A stretch of 64,000 nt of DNA from Acinetobacter sp. SAAs474 (GTDB lineage Bacteria > Pseudomonadota > Gammaproteobacteria > Pseudomonadales > Moraxellaceae): positions 2,356,001 through 2,420,000 of the forward strand of contig NZ_CP127915.1 in the NCBI RefSeq assembly GCF_032823475.1. The letters are read 5' to 3'. The notes below the pieces were generated by a model. That model did no database searches, was not told the DNA's origin, and saw nothing but the letters and a program-made list of their open reading frames with translations. The position numbers were made by a program, and so were the translations under genes. Below are positions 38,861 to 63,226 of this stretch, in pieces. Within the stretch, counting starts at the first letter, position 1. Every line of letters begins with the position of its first letter.

Positions 38861-40051
38861 TCATATAGTTGAATGATTTAAAAAATCTGCCCACCACTGC
38901 ATCATTTTACTACGATGATCTAAATAGTCAGCATGGTTATATGTACCTCGAACTGTATTTTTATCCGCATGAGACAACTGGGCTTCAATCCATTCACTTT
39001 TAAAAAGATTAGATTCATTTAATACTGTGCTCATACTTGATCTTAATCCATGTGAAGTTAATTGATCTGTGGAATAACCCATTCTACGAATTGCATTATT
39101 CAATGAATTAAAATGTAATCTCTGATTTTTATGAATTGGACTTGAGAAAATATATTCACTCCCATAAGACCACTCAATTGCAGAGCTTATCACTTCAATG
39201 GCCTCGTTAGATAACGGGATAAGATAATCTGGAATTTTTTGTCCTTCAATGACCTTTCTTCTTAATTGCTTGACTTGAATTGCGGGGATACGCCATAATT
39301 TTTGATTAAGATCAATATCATTCATTTTAGCATTTAATAACTCTGTACCACGAACTCCTGTCAGTGTTTTAATTTGCAATGCTTTTCGTATAATTGGATG
39401 ACAGTTAGCTGTTTTTAATTGTTGATAAAATTGCTTAATTTCTGTGTGATTAAGAAAAGCATAATTTTTTTTCATCTTTGTTTTAACTAAAATTTTATTT
39501 AATCCTGTCGCAATATTTAAATCAATATAACCTACCGAAAGGCCGTAATCGAAAATTTGACTTAAATAGCTACACGCTTTTTTACAGGGTTCTTTTACCT
39601 GACGATTTTCGATATTGCGAATCACTTTAACTAAATCTGTTCTTTTTAACTCAGCAAATGCGATGTTACCAATTAAAGGCTCAAAATCATTTTTAATACA
39701 TTTTTCAGCCAATACCAAAACACCACTTAAAGGATAATCGCCAAATGAATTTTTTTTCTTAAATGCAAGCCATTCTGCTGCTACATCAGAAAATGTCATA
39801 ATCTTTTGATATTGAGCAGCATGTTGCAGTGTATCTAAAAAATTTACTCTTTCCACAAGAATATTTCGAGTATTTATTTCTGGATATACACCCAAGCGTT
39901 TTACTTTACGTTTACCATTAATATCGTAATATCTGAGTTTCCAGTATTTTAATCCTGTTGGATCAACAACAAAACTAAGGCCATCTCCAAATGAGAGTTG
40001 ATATGTTTTATCTCTTGGTTTGGCTTTTTTCAAATATGATTCAGTCAACAT
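38861..40051 (-). CDS. P4-type tyrosine integrase, second copy
   Basis: A 396-residue tyrosine recombinase with an N-terminal DUF4102 domain (FGDGLSFVVDPTGLKYWKLR, LGVYPEINTRN). Catalytic residues are visible: Arg in TLTGVRGTELLNAKM, His-x-x-Arg in TSHGLRSSMSTVL, His in QLSHADKNTVR and Tyr in GTYNHADYLDHRSKMM. It is intact and not a duplicate of the prophage integrase (9076-10299), though of the same family. No phage genes adjoin it. It lies between catabolic accessory genes and the housekeeping gor gene, so it probably marks an edge of a genomic island. Confidence 0.9.
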   Translation of the reverse strand: MLTESYLKKAKPRDKTYQLSFGDGLSFVVDPTGLKYWKLRYYDINGKRKVKRLGVYPEINTRNILVERVNFLDTLQHAAQYQKIMTFSDVAAEWLAFKKKNSFGDYPLSGVLVLAEKCIKNDFEPLIGNIAFAELKRTDLVKVIRNIENRQVKEPCKKACSYLSQIFDYGLSVGYIDLNIATGLNKILVKTKMKKNYAFLNHTEIKQFYQQLKTANCHPIIRKALQIKTLTGVRGTELLNAKMNDIDLNQKLWRIPAIQVKQLRRKVIEGQKIPDYLIPLSNEAIEVISSAIEWSYGSEYIFSSPIHKNQRLHFNSLNNAIRRMGYSTDQLTSHGLRSSMSTVLNESNLFKSEWIEAQLSHADKNTVRGTYNHADYLDHRSKMMQWWADFLNHSTI

Positions 40052-56098: not shown

Positions 56099-57152
56099 CT
56101 AAGCAGATTGATCCAGGCACTGAAGCTCTTCAATATAGACGGTTCGCCGTTCTTTTGCTGCAAGTTGAATGCATTCTAAAAGTTGAATATTACGAATAGC
56201 ATCCTGAGGTGAGGAGAGTGGCTCTGCTATACCATTTATTACATCGATAAAATGCGTGAGCTGACAAATATAAACATCTTGATCTTTGTTTGGTTCAATT
56301 TTATTTTTAATTAAAGGTGTTGACCAACTTTTGATTTGATCCTTTGGATAGTTCCAATATTCTAAATTAGGTATACTCAATGCGCCTTCAGAACCGCTAA
56401 TAAAGTAGCAATCCTCATTAGGAGAGGCTGCAAAGCTCATTTTATTTTCTTCAGTATTTTGATCCCAGCCCCAAGGTGAAACTGCAGCATCTGAAGCCAA
56501 TAACGTACCTAATGCACCATTTTGAAAACGGACTAAAATTGAAATACTGTCTTCAACCTCAAGATGCCTATTTTTATGGGATGTCATTGCTTGAACAGAT
56601 TCAATTTCTCCATTTAAATAACGCATTAAATCGAAATCATGCACCAAATTAATCGCCAGAACACCAGCCCCAGCACTGCGATGCCATTCAATATCAAAGT
56701 AGCTATCAGGTTTATATACACTCCATAATACATTGAATGTGTTAATTTCTCCCAATGTTTCCTTATCGATAATCGCTTTTGCTTGCTGAATAATTTTATT
56801 GTGGCGACGATGATGTCCAACAAGAATTGGTACATTGAAGTAACATTAATGCTTCGGTCGTATTTAATGCTAGTGGCTTTTCGAGTAAGCATATCACACC
56901 ATGTTGCATACATTGAATTGCTGTACTGACATGGAAATGGTTTGGATTTGCAATGACTACACCATCTAAAGTCATTTGATTGAGCAGATCTTGTAAATTT
57001 TTATAGTTTGGAACATGGTATTCTTGCGCCATGACATCTGAAAATGGATCACAAATTGCCACAAGTTCAGTATCTGGATGTTTGAGAATTGTTTGAGCAT
57101 GCTTTTTACCCATGGCACCTGCACCAATAATAGCGATTTTTTTGTTCTTCAT
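56099..57152 (-). pseudogene. Gfo/Idh/MocA-family oxidoreductase, frameshifted
   Basis: The N-terminal NAD-binding part (IAIIGAGAMGKKHAQTILKH, VVIANPNHFHVSTAIQCM, CLLEKPLALNTTEALMLLQ) is in one frame and stops at 56796. The C-terminal part resumes in another frame at about 56834 with VPILVGHHRRHNKIIQQAKA and continues through EWHRSAGAGVLAINLVHDFD to 56099. A small deletion (several codons after MLLQ) shifted the frame. The catalytic EKP Lys and the His in LVHDFDLM survive, but no single intact product is made. It was probably a cyclitol or sugar-acid dehydrogenase of the same IclR regulon. Confidence 0.83.
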
Positions 57153-57825: not shown

Positions 57826-57827
57826 TC

Positions 57828-57911
57828 ATAGCCACGCAGACTTGCGTAGGCTTGACTGATACGCAAGTCGAGTAGCGATCTGATTTCTGCATAACTTATA
57901 TTATGTTCATT
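57828..57911. repeat. pdif-like repeat, copy 1, with XerC/XerD-type site
   Basis: It begins CATAGCCACGCAGACTTGCG and ends with TTTCTGCATAA-CTTATA-TTATGTTCATT, an 11-6-11 arrangement (57884-57911) like the XerC/XerD sites (pdif) of Acinetobacter plasmids. The same sequence occurs at 60068-60143. Copy 1 has an extra segment that makes a perfect 10-bp inverted repeat (GACTTGCGTA / TACGCAAGTC, 57839-57869). Confidence 0.6.
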
Positions 57912-57917
57912 AGGATA

Positions 57918-57959
57918 CTCAGTAACGTGATGTATAATCTAAATCATCACGTTACTGAG
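57918..57959. repeat. 15-bp perfect inverted repeat
   Basis: CTCAGTAACGTGATG (57918-57932) and CATCACGTTACTGAG (57945-57959) form a perfect stem with a 12-base loop. A second short stem (CTGTAGC / GCTACAG, 57960-57992) follows. Neither has a T tract. Confidence 0.6.
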
Positions 57960-58378: not shown

Positions 58379-59251
58379 CTAGACACACATAACCATCTTT
58401 TGATGGGCCTTTTCATAATCTAATGGAGAACGTTGACCATTGGAACCATGTCTGCGTTTTGAATTATAGAACATCTCTATATATTCAAAGATATCGGATC
58501 TTGCTTCAGTTCTAGTTACATAGATTTTCTTTTTAATTCGTTCCCGCTTTAATAGCTGGAAGAAGCTTTCTGCAACAGCATTGTCATGGCAATTACCTCT
58601 ACGACTCATACTACTTTCAAGATTATGATGCTTGAGAAATGTCTGCCATTCATGGCTGGTATATTGGCTACCTTGATCAGAATGAATTAGGACTTTGTTC
58701 TTTGGATTTCTTCGCCACAAAGCCATCAATAACGCATCTAAAACCAAATCTGTCGTGATTCTGGATTTCATAGACCAACCAACAACAAGACGTGAAAATA
58801 GATCAATCACAACTGCAAGATACAACCACCCTTCATGTGTACGGATATAGGTAATGTCCGTCACCCATAATTGGTTCGGCTGAGTTGGATTAAACTGTCG
58901 ATTTAAGCTGTTTGCGGCAATGACCGCTGGAGTACCAGCGTGAGCTCTAGGTTTACGATAACCACGCTGTGATTTAAGACCATCTGCTTTCATCAGTCGA
59001 TGTACTCGATTGATCCCGCAACTTTCGCCAACATCTTTCAAATCATAGTGAATCTTGCGATAGCCATAGACTCCGCCAGATTCCAGCCAGAATTGTTTAA
59101 TCAGTTCTGAAAGCTGTTGCCGTTTCCTTGCAGTTTCACTAGTGGGTTGCTTTAACCATGCGTAATAACCACTGTGGTGAACATCTAATGTTGAACATAA
59201 ACGACGAACAGGCCATATGTGCTGATTGTCCTGAATAAAGGCGTACCTCAT
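58379..59251 (-). CDS. IS3-family transposase OrfB (DDE integrase domain)
   Basis: A 290-residue protein with an N-terminal HTH_21 part (MRYAFIQDNQHIWPVRRLCS, YGYRKIHYDLKD) and an rve integrase core: Asp in LWVTDITYIRTHEGWLYLAV, Asp in LIHSDQGSQYTSHEW and Glu in NAVAESFFQLLKRERI, ending RRHGSNGQRSPLDYE. It overlaps OrfA by four bases (ATGA). It may be made as an OrfAB fusion by -1 frameshifting. Confidence 0.92.
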   Translation of the reverse strand: MRYAFIQDNQHIWPVRRLCSTLDVHHSGYYAWLKQPTSETARKRQQLSELIKQFWLESGGVYGYRKIHYDLKDVGESCGINRVHRLMKADGLKSQRGYRKPRAHAGTPAVIAANSLNRQFNPTQPNQLWVTDITYIRTHEGWLYLAVVIDLFSRLVVGWSMKSRITTDLVLDALLMALWRRNPKNKVLIHSDQGSQYTSHEWQTFLKHHNLESSMSRRGNCHDNAVAESFFQLLKRERIKKKIYVTRTEARSDIFEYIEMFYNSKRRHGSNGQRSPLDYEKAHQKMVMCV

Positions 59252-59532
59252 TTGGACTGGCTTGCGAAGTACACCGCGGCCTTTTTTAATATGTCCCTTT
59301 CTTCAGTAACCCGTTGCAGCTCTTTTTTTAACTTTGCTAATTCTGCACTTGGATCATTAGACTCTATCGTCTTGGGCTGCTGTGGATCATAACGTTTAAT
59401 CCAAGCATACAAACTATGGGTGGTGGTTCCTAAACGCGTAGCAACCTCGGCCACACTATGACCTTTCTCAGTGACCTGTTTTACTGCTTCAATTTTGAAT
59501 TCTTCAGGATATCGTTTACTGCTCATAAGCAC
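59248..59532 (-). CDS. IS3-family transposase OrfA
   Basis: A 94-residue DNA-binding subunit: helix-turn-helix SSKRYPEEFKIEAVKQVTEK, GHSVAEVATRLGTTTHSLYA-WIKRY. It is followed by a leucine-zipper-like segment (LAKLKKELQRVTEERDILKK) and the usual AAVYFASQSK end. It binds the IS ends. Confidence 0.92.
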   Translation of the reverse strand: MLMSSKRYPEEFKIEAVKQVTEKGHSVAEVATRLGTTTHSLYAWIKRYDPQQPKTIESNDPSAELAKLKKELQRVTEERDILKKAAVYFASQSK

Positions 59533-59583: not shown

Positions 59584-59772
59584 CTATTCATCGAGGACTT
59601 CTTCTCGATACTTCATAACCTCATCAGCCTTTAAATTCTTAAGGTGATATTTAATCAGAGCATGAATTACATCTGATTCTTTCATCAAAACTTTTTTCTC
59701 AATGACGAATTTCATCAAGGATTCTTTGATGCTGTCAACTTCGTCATCTCGAATTTTATAAACCTTTGCCAT
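59584..59772 (-). CDS. Small ribbon-helix-helix-like DNA-binding protein, 3' end altered by IS3
   Basis: 62 residues (MAKVYKIRDDEVDSIKESLM, KFVIEKKVLMKESDVIHALI, KYHLKNLKADEVMKYREEVL). The short strand-helix-helix pattern with ESDVIHALIKYHL resembles CopG/ParD-type regulators common on plasmids. The stop TAG lies within the IS terminal repeat, so the natural C-terminus is lost. It is divergent from the gene at 59894, with inverted and direct boxes (AAAAGTAACT-like) between them that may be its operator. Confidence 0.55.
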   Translation of the reverse strand: MAKVYKIRDDEVDSIKESLMKFVIEKKVLMKESDVIHALIKYHLKNLKADEVMKYREEVLDE

Positions 59773-59893: not shown

Positions 59894-60103
59894 ATGGCTG
59901 CTATACAGAAGCAACCTAAAGAAAATTCAGTCATTCCAACCTTTGAACATAAAATAGCTAATGTACTGAAAAATACGGTACATCCAACTCAGCAAGCTTC
60001 TCAAACCCAAATTTATAATATGCGGGAAACGATTGACCAAATATGCATCATGTATCCAGATATTGAGGTCATAGCCACGCAGACTTGCGTAGGCTCGACT
60101 TAA
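59894..60103 (+). CDS. Small plasmid-type protein, 3' end replaced by the pdif-like repeat
   Basis: 69 residues (MAAIQKQPKENSVIPTFEHK, IANVLKNTVHPTQQASQTQI, YNMRETIDQICIMYPDIEV). The last about ten residues (IATQTCVGST) come from the repeat that begins at 60068, so the gene has been cut by recombination at the repeat boundary. Family not recognised. The context with an RHH-like regulator suggests a plasmid maintenance or mobilisation gene. Confidence 0.45.
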   Translation: MAAIQKQPKENSVIPTFEHKIANVLKNTVHPTQQASQTQIYNMRETIDQICIMYPDIEVIATQTCVGST

Positions 60104-60143
60104 ACAGCGATCTGATTTCTGCATAACTTATATTATGTTACTT
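60068..60143. repeat. pdif-like repeat, copy 2, with XerC/XerD-type site
   Basis: Direct repeat of 57828-57911, lacking about 14 internal bases. The site reads TTTCTGCATAA-CTTATA-TTATGTTACTT (60116-60143), with an identical XerC-like arm and spacer. Weaker similarity continues downstream (GATATTCTAATTAAC, compare GATATTCTATTTAAC near 57,999). The two copies bracket the IS3-bearing 2.2-kb segment. Confidence 0.6.
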
Positions 60144-60876
60144 GGAATACTCATCAACGTGAATTTTGATATTCTAATTAACTTATGTTTACTGGAAGTC
60201 TAGTTCATGAAAAAAACTCAAAATATTTATATAAAATTTAATAAGTTATTAGGGTGTGTAGGATAATTTGTAAAACTTACTTCATGAACCTATGAGGATT
60301 GGCAGTTTTAGACCAACTTATCTCTAAAGGTAATTACTTTGATAGGGAGTGGTTGTTTAACCCCAGAAAAAGTTCAGTCTCTGAGATCATAAATTTACTT
60401 AAATAACTGATGTTATCCAGCAAGAGAACTACTCTCAGAATATTAGACACAAGATAGCTTCAAAATGAAGCTATCTCAATGCTTTTTCCTACATCCTGTG
60501 ATCATACGCAGAGAGAATCATAATAAAGACTTCATCATAAGACTATATGAAAGGGAGGTATCGAATAAGTTTGATCTCATTCTCACTGATTTGATATCTA
60601 TTTTTAACTTCGGTTATTTATGGAATAGGTAAAAATTAGGTGTAACCAGAGGGATTTAAGTCTATTACTTACTTCGAATGAGTATGGCTTAGAAAATTTA
60701 TCATAAAGGTATAATTTTTCAAAAAAATTCCCAAATACATAAAGTAATTCTGTATTATTATCACAGAAGTTTTTCTTTAGAAAATTGTCCTGATAACCAA
60801 TACGTTATATATTGAAAGAATTTTCTATTTATTTTATGTCAAGCCTAGGTTAGTTAAAAGATTCTATTAAAAGCAT
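60144..60876. other. Intergenic DNA upstream of the ATPase/HNH operon
   Basis: About 730 bases. It contains short coding-like remnants (for example VLDQLISKGNYFDREWLFNP ending near 60,405). It also has a perfect 10-bp stem-loop (AGATAGCTTC / GAAGCTATCT, 60452-60476) that could terminate upstream transcription. No intact gene is seen. TTGTCC near 60,786 and an AT-rich stretch lead to the operon start. Confidence 0.4.
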
Positions 60877-62394
60877 ATGAAAATATTTTTTTATGATAAG
60901 CCAAATAGCTATGCAGAAGACTCTTGTATAGTTAAAGTAATGAATACAACTTGGAATGATTTTGGAATCCAATCAAAAGTAAAGCTTGAACTATTAGTTT
61001 CAAATAAAAAAATTATATTGCAAGCATATCATACTGTATATTTTAATAATAATTTTGTTACATTAAAATCAATGACCCAAAAGGAGTTAGAGAGTGAAAA
61101 CATCAAACAATATATTTTATTAGAATCAGTTGAGGAATATGAAAAATTAAAAAATTATTTTCCTAATAAATTTGATAGTATTCTAAAAAAATTAAATGAT
61201 ATCTCTTTTCTTAGAATGAAGAAAAATAGAGATAAAAATTTCAATTTTTTATTGCAAAGTGATATTTTTAATAAGAGCTTCATCAGATCTAATGAGTCAT
61301 TTTTAGCTTATTTGTATGGTTATACTGGATTAGGATCTACGCTTACTCTAGATGTAGGGGAGATTTCATCTCTAAACCCTTTAATAAATAAAGAAGTCTT
61401 TTTTTATGTAAATTATGAAAAAAATAATGATTTGAATTTTCTACCTTTTAAACATTTTATTATGATTGGAAGGAATGGATCTGGAAAAAGTCAAACTTTA
61501 AGAAAATTTGCATTAAAGTATAAAGATAAAAAAGTATTTAATTGTGTTGCTTGTTTTTCTCAATCTGATAAATCAAATTCTTTCTCAAAAAATATAAAAA
61601 ATGTAAATCATGTGAATTTAACTAAATCTAAAAAAAATATAGAAATCCTTCATTCAATTATTAGATTTAGATTTGATCAAAATAGATTTGAAGACTATGA
61701 TTTTGATATTTTAATTGATCTTACAAATAACATTAATTTCATGAAAAAAATTGTTCTTTATAAAGACAAAAGTTCCTATTTATCGTTAAAAGATTTAGTT
61801 GAATTTAATAGTGGTGAGCAAAATACTCTTGAAAAAATTCAAGAAATTGCAAGTTATAATAGATTTAAAATAAAAAATGGTTCAAACTTTTATGATCTTA
61901 GTTCTGGAGAAAATTTTTTCATAAATCTTATTTTTAATTTACTTCATATCACTAGTCAGTATAAAAATAATATATTATTTTTATTTGATGAGCCAGAAAG
62001 CTTTCTACACCCAAATTTTATTTCCATTTTTTCAGAAATAGTTTGCTATTTTACCAATCGATTATACTGCATAGCTATTACAGCTACTCATTCTATATAC
62101 TTGGTGAAAAATTCTCTTCAAGAGAATATTGTTGTTTTTAGAAAAAATGACGAAAAAATTGAATTAGAGAAACCCTCTTTTAATACTTTTGGTGCAAATC
62201 TTAATTCATTATCATATTTTATATTCGGCTTTGAATCACCATTAGAACACGAAGAGTCTGTTATTGAAAAAATTGTGGAAATTGAAAGGTATAAACAAAA
62301 ATCTTTCATAGAACTTATTGATAAATATGGTAAATTTTTATCATCAGAAACCATTGATCGTATATATATGAAGCTGCAAAATGAAAAAAGTTAA
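60877..62394 (+). CDS. ABC-type ATPase of a Septu-like (PtuA) two-gene defence candidate
   Basis: 505 residues. An unusual N-terminal region of about 190 residues precedes the ATPase. Walker A GRNGSGKS is at residues 198-205, an ABC-like signature LSSGE at 341-345, Walker B ILFLFDEPE ending near 372-374, and the switch His in TATHS at 405. This is the RecF/SMC/ABC-type ATPase arrangement of PtuA and related defence ATPases, but in typical PtuA the Walker A lies close to the N-terminus. The C-terminal about 80 residues are helical. The gene is very rich in A/T. It overlaps the HNH nuclease gene by 14 bases. It would sense or clamp and activate the nuclease. Confidence 0.8.
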   Translation: MKIFFYDKPNSYAEDSCIVKVMNTTWNDFGIQSKVKLELLVSNKKIILQAYHTVYFNNNFVTLKSMTQKELESENIKQYILLESVEEYEKLKNYFPNKFDSILKKLNDISFLRMKKNRDKNFNFLLQSDIFNKSFIRSNESFLAYLYGYTGLGSTLTLDVGEISSLNPLINKEVFFYVNYEKNNDLNFLPFKHFIMIGRNGSGKSQTLRKFALKYKDKKVFNCVACFSQSDKSNSFSKNIKNVNHVNLTKSKKNIEILHSIIRFRFDQNRFEDYDFDILIDLTNNINFMKKIVLYKDKSSYLSLKDLVEFNSGEQNTLEKIQEIASYNRFKIKNGSNFYDLSSGENFFINLIFNLLHITSQYKNNILFLFDEPESFLHPNFISIFSEIVCYFTNRLYCIAITATHSIYLVKNSLQENIVVFRKNDEKIELEKPSFNTFGANLNSLSYFIFGFESPLEHEESVIEKIVEIERYKQKSFIELIDKYGKFLSSETIDRIYMKLQNEKS

Positions 62395-63226
62395 TTTAGG
62401 AATTGATGATATTTCTATTCTCAATGATCTTTATTTATCCAAATCAAAATTAGTAGTTAATTTAAAGGATAGAGAAGACTTCTTTTTGAAACATAGATAT
62501 AGAATGTATACTTCTTTTGCAGAAAAACAAAAATTAAGCAACTTACGTAAAATACCATATCTTCATAAACAAAGAGCTCAAATTTTTGAAAGTCTCTATT
62601 CTTCAAAATTATCCTCTTTAAAGTATATCAAGCAATATAGAGAAACAACTAGCTTCAAAGTTTGTAGTTTGTGTGGCAGTCCTGCAGCAGGGACTTTAGA
62701 CCATTTTTTACCTAAAGAGATTTATCCAGAATTTAGTATATTTTCTAAAAATCTCATTCCTGCATGTAAATGTAATTTTTCAAAAAATAAAAATATTAGT
62801 ATGATTTATCATCCGCAATTTTTCGATTTTCTTGAAAATCGCTTGTATTTTATTGATTTTTTAATAATAAATGAAAGTGTAAATTATAGGGGTATTAAAA
62901 TAAATATAAAACCTTATCACCCATACTATAATTTAATAGAATCTCACCTTGTAAATCACATTCTTAAATGTGTTGATGGTTTTGAAAATGAAATGAGAAC
63001 ACGTCTTCAATCTTTATATGATACACCTCAAACTTGTATCTTTGCCTTAGACTCCGTAGTAACTAGCTTGTCGAAACAACAATTAAGAAAAATTATTCAT
63101 AATCAATTAAAACGTGAAAATGAAAAATTTCAAACCCCTAACTCCTGGGACTCATTAATTCTATCCAGTTTTTTAAAAAAAGAAGTTTTTAATCAATTTT
63201 TTTTGCGAGTTAATACCATTTTATAA
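62381..63226 (+). CDS. HNH endonuclease of the Septu-like pair (PtuB-like)
   Basis: 281 residues. A zinc-ribbon/HNH core runs from about residue 95: C95-x-x-C98 (VCSLCGS), D107-H108 in LDHFLPKEIYPEFSIF, N124 in SKNLIPACKCN with C129 and C131 (spacing CxC, one residue shorter than the usual CxxC), and H144 in IYHPQFFDF. This pattern is that of PtuB/retron-associated HNH nucleases. The N-terminal 90 residues are basic and helical. It overlaps the ATPase gene, so the two are co-translated. It probably cuts DNA or tRNA once the ATPase partner is triggered. The target is unknown. Confidence 0.82.
   Translation: MKKVNLGIDDISILNDLYLSKSKLVVNLKDREDFFLKHRYRMYTSFAEKQKLSNLRKIPYLHKQRAQIFESLYSSKLSSLKYIKQYRETTSFKVCSLCGSPAAGTLDHFLPKEIYPEFSIFSKNLIPACKCNFSKNKNISMIYHPQFFDFLENRLYFIDFLIINESVNYRGIKINIKPYHPYYNLIESHLVNHILKCVDGFENEMRTRLQSLYDTPQTCIFALDSVVTSLSKQQLRKIIHNQLKRENEKFQTPNSWDSLILSSFLKKEVFNQFFLRVNTIL

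Follow-up and report, generated by a model that had tools for sequence, protein, structure and literature searches.

The 64,000-nucleotide stretch of Acinetobacter sp. SAAs474 analysed here (contig NZ_CP127915.1, positions 2,356,001 to 2,420,000; hereafter the window, whose numbering is used throughout) carries close to its end an operon of two genes, coding for an ABC-type ATPase and an HNH nuclease (Table 1). An initial annotation, made from the DNA letters alone, had described overlapping genes with these motifs, and coordinates and motifs proved to be as it gave them. Both reading frames are open over their full length and share 14 nt. In 41-row alignments that include the window proteins, K204, E372 and H405 of the ATPase and C95, C98, H108, N124, C129 and C131 of the nuclease are invariant, and D371 is nearly so. 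A Pfam search recognised AAA_21 in the ATPase (2.6e-8), none of the listed best stretches beginning before residue 178, and gave no match for the nuclease. The operon was also said to be far more AT-rich than its neighbours, which is the case: its guanine plus cytosine (GC) content is 0.242 versus 0.349 for the window upstream of it, only 7 of 1233 sliding windows (2350 bases, step 50) are as GC-poor, and the minimum among those lying wholly upstream is 0.284.

Table 1. Features of the ATPase-nuclease operon (window coordinates).
Feature	Position	Strand	Basis or remark
ABC-type ATPase, PDC-M01A / PtuA-like, 505 aa	60877..62394	+	profile matches, predicted fold
N-terminal domain, residues 1-152 of ATPase	60877..61332	+	no match in Pfam or among PDB sequences
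Walker A GRNGSGKS, residues 198-205, K204	61468..61491	+	
ABC signature LSSGE, residues 341-345	61897..61911	+	
Walker B LFLFDEPE, residues 367-374, D371 and E372	61975..61998	+	
TATHS, switch histidine H405	62080..62094	+	
HNH nuclease, PDC-M01B / PtuB-like, 281 aa	62381..63226	+	profile matches, predicted fold
Zinc-knuckle pair 1 of nuclease, C95-x-x-C98	62663..62674	+	
HNH D107-H108 of nuclease	62699..62704	+	N124 16 residues on, at 62750-62752
Zinc-knuckle pair 2 of nuclease, C129-K-C131	62765..62773	+	CxC variant of its clade

Comparison with the PADLOC profiles allowed us to assign both genes to one catalogued family, the candidate defence system PDC-M01. The best profile for the ATPase is PDC-M01A (PDLC04238, 5.7e-33), the next family being PtuA1 (1.1e-15), and the best for the nuclease is PDC-M01B (PDLC04266, 2.7e-27), with PtuB1 at 1.1e-7. 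In two further PDC-M01A models, PDLC04235 and PDLC04244, the alignment with the window ATPase already begins at its residue 12 or 13, which indicates that the N-terminus of the ATPase belongs to the family. As expected for PDC-M01, genes A and B are adjacent in the window, and further points of likeness are the long N-terminus and the gene order, with an HNH gene of about 280 codons coming after that of the ATPase; no defining difference was found, and the window pair appears as a very divergent member of the CxC branch described below, with a best identity of about 30% over most of its length among the relatives found. The suggestion that the operon might be a new subtype or a distinct system was therefore rejected, since PADLOC models for the pair already exist, the long N-terminus is found family-wide and the CxC variant is shared by a clade. 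Among the NCBIfam models, the window ATPase matches TIGR04435 (restriction system-associated AAA family ATPase) at 3.4e-19 and 69 bits, under its curated cut-off of 300 bits, as a member of the same broader family of ATPases, and the PtuA model NF041760 is not among the matches listed for this protein. In the 41-row ATPase alignment (A3), the NCBIfam PtuA model matches 39 rows and TIGR04435 all 41.

Relatives of the ATPase were sought in 58 genomes of relatives, 175 of the same genus and 398 of the same phylum, three overlapping sets in which 5, 18 and 21 genomes respectively matched at E<=1e-3, the window's own genome being counted in each. Further relatives came from 49 plasmid records, 31 loci of GTDB genomes and 31 loci of viral contigs; the plasmid searches matched 49 records with the ATPase and 29 with the nuclease, and 14 regions around matches were fetched. 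A single-sequence scan of the genome contigs yielded no relative. Sorting 118 loci by the position of Walker A distinguished 73 long-type ATPases (residues 166-359), 31 short ones (20-70) and 14 loci without recognisable Walker A or ATPase. This sort leaves out the window genome's own loci L001, L006 and L007, as well as L122 and L123, which were added later; among the long loci, L101 and L102 are identical and L059 was reached via the nuclease. Long-type pairs are present in Pseudomonadota, Bacillota, Bacteroidota, Actinomycetota, Planctomycetota and Acidobacteriota, and also on plasmids and viral contigs. Two relatives (L123:789-6565 and L058:517-5021) lie directly after type I-like methylase and/or specificity-subunit genes, with no HsdR in between.

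The co-occurrence of the two genes is well conserved. An HNH gene lies directly downstream in 72 of the 73 long-type loci (L079 being the sole locus without it) and codes for 271-311 amino acids in 69 of these 72; fifteen of the 73 had themselves been rows of the profile with which partners were sought, their own partners having been recognised beforehand through similarity to the nuclease of the window. Among the 31 short-type loci, 13 have any downstream partner match and two, L003 and L009, a strong one. In a tree of the ATPase core (86 rows), L003 and L009, whose open reading frames (ORFs) are short, fall inside the long clade, while 11 short rows stand together with L036, long by its Walker A position, opposite the 74 others (12 rows, support 99/90). 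The distance from Walker A to Walker B is 147-250 in 72 of the 75 non-short tree rows, a motif not being found in the other three, whereas the 11 short rows give 266-421; the window, one of the 72, has 167. These distances separate the long and short types, so that their architecture differs beyond the added N-terminus. An upstream gene was listed for 31 loci, long or short, and scanned in 10 of them. Around a neighbouring hydrolase gene, seven relatives showed no further synteny with the window, and consequently no empty site could be defined.

The ATPase has 197 residues ahead of Walker A. The initial annotation had counted about 190 and recognised no domain in them; canonical PtuA indeed lacks this N-terminal domain, for which Pfam gave no match, and a long N-terminus is a hallmark of the family, found in 73 relatives. 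The N-terminal domain carries a conserved W26-N-D28-F-G motif as well as Y88 and D108. The alignment A3 shows no variation at D28, Y88 or D108 and hardly any at W26; in a set of 44 N-terminal stretches, neither Y88 nor D108 varies, and D28 reaches 90% or more. AlphaFold2 predicts strands within residues 18-61 and a further one at 77-82, followed by helices that span residues 85 to 152, with a mean predicted local distance difference test score of 74-92 per ten-residue block over residues 21-150 and a very low score for 153-189. A profile of the domain gave a best E of 0.98 against PDB sequences; the comparison with the PDB was made by sequence profile, and the fold may already be known. In the comparison of the whole ATPase, at least a fifth of the rows cover only residues 145-505, so that the N-terminal domain was barely probed there. 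One PDC-M01A relative (L002:1003-2916) has an extra AbiJ_NTD3 domain (PF18860, 9.2e-25) ahead of the N-terminal domain. The position of Walker A at residues 341-359 in seven loci suggests added domains in other relatives too.

The predicted folds place the pair in the wider PtuA/PtuB group, as the initial naming of a Septu-like operon had it. For residues 141-505 of the ATPase, PtuA is the best match among solved structures, and for nearly the whole nuclease chain it is PtuB. Two outcomes that would have told against the initial annotation, a fold match of the ATPase to non-defence families and a lack of co-occurrence of the two genes, were looked for and not obtained. Single-sequence searches of the PDB gave no convincing match, and no row listed from a viral fold library is named PtuA, the list comprising ATPases, ABC proteins, helicases, further enzymes and proteins without a name. 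The window ATPase resembles PtuA of Septu (8eea; EcB88) in its ABC core and C-terminal helices, and the nuclease shares with PtuB, besides the fold, the spacing of 16 from H to N and the two-gene operon. In contrast to PtuA, however, the window ATPase has about 150 extra N-terminal residues, residue 1 of 8eea PtuA aligning with residue 163 of the model; Walker A lies near the N-terminus in compact PtuA (K43) and at K204 here; and K204 to D371 spans 167 residues versus 273 from K43 to D316 in EcB88. The nuclease, with 281 amino acids, is longer than the ten matched PtuB-type chains (205-258 residues). The PtuAB proteins of type I-A retrons (Ec78/Eco7, Ec83) are the best PDB profile matches among defence proteins (22bu, 9vh1, 9kjx) and the best fold matches, but Pfam recognised no reverse transcriptase among the ORFs to which it was applied between 58026 and L007:8343 (L007 being a locus of the same genome that extends beyond the operon). 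PARIS AriA, Gabija GajA and OLD share an AAA_21/OLD-type ABC ATPase core with the window protein (weak matches), whereas the partner here is a PtuB-fold HNH protein, with no TOPRIM listed and no UvrD helicase partner. Retron, PARIS and Gabija were rejected as their partner genes were not found. The C-terminal core of the ATPase also weakly matches Ea59 of phage lambda-type records (about 30% across 22% of the query sequence; matches H70-H79).

The second cysteine pair of the nuclease had been singled out as CxC in place of CxxC. The variant is present, yet it is not peculiar to this gene, being found in nine relatives (L024, L048-L051, L053, L054, L061 and L091), and was rejected as a sign of decay on that ground. 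Exactly these nine and the window form one group in the ATPase-core tree (93/77), nested in a starred set of 14 rows (96/83), the value of 93/77 falling below the starred level. A trait of the nuclease is thereby mirrored in the phylogeny of the ATPase, which points to a single ancestral change and to the two genes having been inherited together.

We consider the pair to be a divergent member of PDC-M01 within the wider ATPase-HNH group of PtuA and PtuB (Septu, type I-A retrons), most likely working as an ATP-gated sensor, and give this reading a probability of about 0.8. The module is real and Septu-like in fold and composition, and it probably has a role in defence. Functional data come from its better known relatives. 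In Septu EcB88, mutation of K43 or D316 of PtuA, or of H75 or N91 of PtuB, abolishes immunity, and infected cells show cut tRNA-Tyr, according to passages of PMC13096335; excerpts of PMC11555353 describe depletion of tRNA-Tyr by the PtuAB of retron-Eco7 and report nicked DNA as the target of a different E. coli Septu. The window pair retains counterparts of the essential EcB88 residues, likewise with an H-N spacing of 16. The likeliest mechanism is an ATP-gated complex releasing or activating the nuclease on infection. The ATPase would form ABC dimers or higher oligomers that keep the HNH protein inactive; an infection cue, acting via the N-terminal domain and/or the nucleotide state, would alter the complex; and the freed or activated nuclease would cut nucleic acid and so halt phage growth at the cost of the host cell. 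Its substrate might be tRNA, which is what Septu EcB88 and retron-Eco7 attack, or DNA, reported for the other E. coli Septu. The analysis establishes the gene pair with its motifs, its family, its folds by prediction and the conserved linkage; that the two proteins form a complex, sense infection, cut such a target, bring about an abortive outcome and defend against phage at all is inferred.

As the N-terminal domain sets the family apart, it would be the natural candidate for the trigger-specific part. On a more speculative note, the W(N/D)D(F/Y)G domain might be a dedicated infection sensor where PtuA has its long Walker A-to-B insertion, which would make PDC-M01 a mechanistically separate branch with its own trigger, further modular as in L002 with its AbiJ_NTD3, and with a CxC clade possibly altered in metal site and target.

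Alternative readings were weighed against this one. It is possible, though rather doubtful, that the operon is plain Septu (PtuAB) with an extended PtuA and that no separate family exists. Besides the match of both predicted folds to PtuA and PtuB, the PADLOC PtuA1 model PDLC00282 covers the long type in L002 (residues 168-618 to 15-498), and 41 PDC-M01 calls in genomes of the B. cereus group duplicated Septu calls, as stated in parts of PMC11811056; but the PDC-M01 models surpass those of PtuA and PtuB by many orders of magnitude, and both the 99/90 branch and the Walker A-to-B distances set the long type apart. Improbable in our view is a restriction-type role, in which the ATPase and HNH protein are the cutting module of a modification-guarded system. 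The match to TIGR04435 in the window and in every A3 row would fit such a role, as would relatives from Priestia and Tenacibaculum that sit behind methylase and/or specificity-subunit genes and the position of L073 directly behind HsdR; the window protein, however, remains far under the TIGR04435 cut-off, and no methylase or specificity subunit was recognised on reading the ORF lists of window positions 40000-64000 and L007, part of which was also scanned with Pfam. We hardly believe in a decayed or non-functional passenger of a junk-rich spot beside dif, for although the window has the longest branch of the ATPase-core tree (2.98), which leaves its placement with the CxC rows uncertain, and although GC is 23-26% and the upstream DNA holds a phage remnant, an IS3 and what seems to be a broken gene, the frames are intact, the catalytic and zinc residues are kept and the CxC recurs in relatives.

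Our literature searches found no functional report under the name PDC-M01, no experiment on a long-type pair and no publication on TIGR04435. The two papers found to name PDC-M01, PMC11811056 and PMC11758030, only predict it in the portions seen, the former terming the PDC-x systems unpublished candidates, and activity was not seen for two other PADLOC candidates in a passage of PMC12409345. The single locus is unsurprising in itself and its overall interest modest, but the N-terminal domain of the family merits an experiment. The architecture to be tested comprises a conserved, unassigned N-terminal domain in which D28, Y88 and D108 hardly vary, a core that resembles PtuA but has its Walker A and B motifs closer together, and a clade of CxC nucleases; it helps to decide whether PDC-M01 deserves the name Septu or another.

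The operon lies close to the chromosomal dif site (L007:7469-7494, 4.2 kb past it), the sole copy of this 26-mer in the genome at up to one mismatch; the motif, with the same tolerance, occurs exactly once in 23 of 25 genomes of the genus searched, own genome included. Between operon and dif, on the minus strand, a gene for 1358 amino acids (L007:3410-7486) has its first possible start codon inside dif. Its product matches PDC-M54A over residues 64-235 only (5.9e-13) and nothing in Pfam or NCBIfam; on reading, it has a P-loop and appears STAND-like, which puts another candidate defence gene beside the operon. When 18 dif neighbourhoods were compared, own included, most genes on the operon side had no or few counterparts elsewhere.

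The initial annotation had placed the operon next to IS3 and a Xer-type recombination module. The IS3 is there (58379-59532), shares 99.9% identity with a copy carried by an Acinetobacter plasmid and was probably inserted recently. As to the module, neither the ORF list nor Pfam gave a recombinase gene adjoining the operon; a tyrosine recombinase gene lies within the window at 38861-40051, 21 kb away. Found instead were two dif-like sites with three mismatches each, at 57886 and 60118, where 0.20 were expected (1 of 100 shuffles reached that number). Each stands, with the spacer CTTATA, in one copy of a direct repeat of about 100 bp (57826-57930 and 60069-60162, 2.2 kb apart), which also carries a short imperfect inverted repeat (agccacgca..tgcgtaggct). 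These repeats look like attachment sites of an XerCD-using element. Some filamentous phages use XerCD at dif, and 173 bases between the two sites (59594-59766) are 71.7% identical to the DNA immediately ahead of rep in the filamentous, Zot-encoding Acinetobacter phage M02, perhaps the remnant of such a phage near dif. Traces of elements using XerCD and dif near the operon may explain the earlier impression of a Xer module.

Upstream, at 56099-57152 on the minus strand, two ORFs read as if a single oxidoreductase gene had been broken in two. A search of the window with ARAGORN gave no tRNA. The whole genome holds 25 zero-mismatch matches to the dif-like pattern (48 with up to three mismatches; 11 in a reversed control), and 22 of the 25 lie outside the chromosome contig C9 (on G000 contigs C1-C7 and C13), where they are probably plasmid dif modules. 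On C9 itself, an adjacent inverted pair of dif-like sites stands at 2757332-2757431, 74 bases apart.
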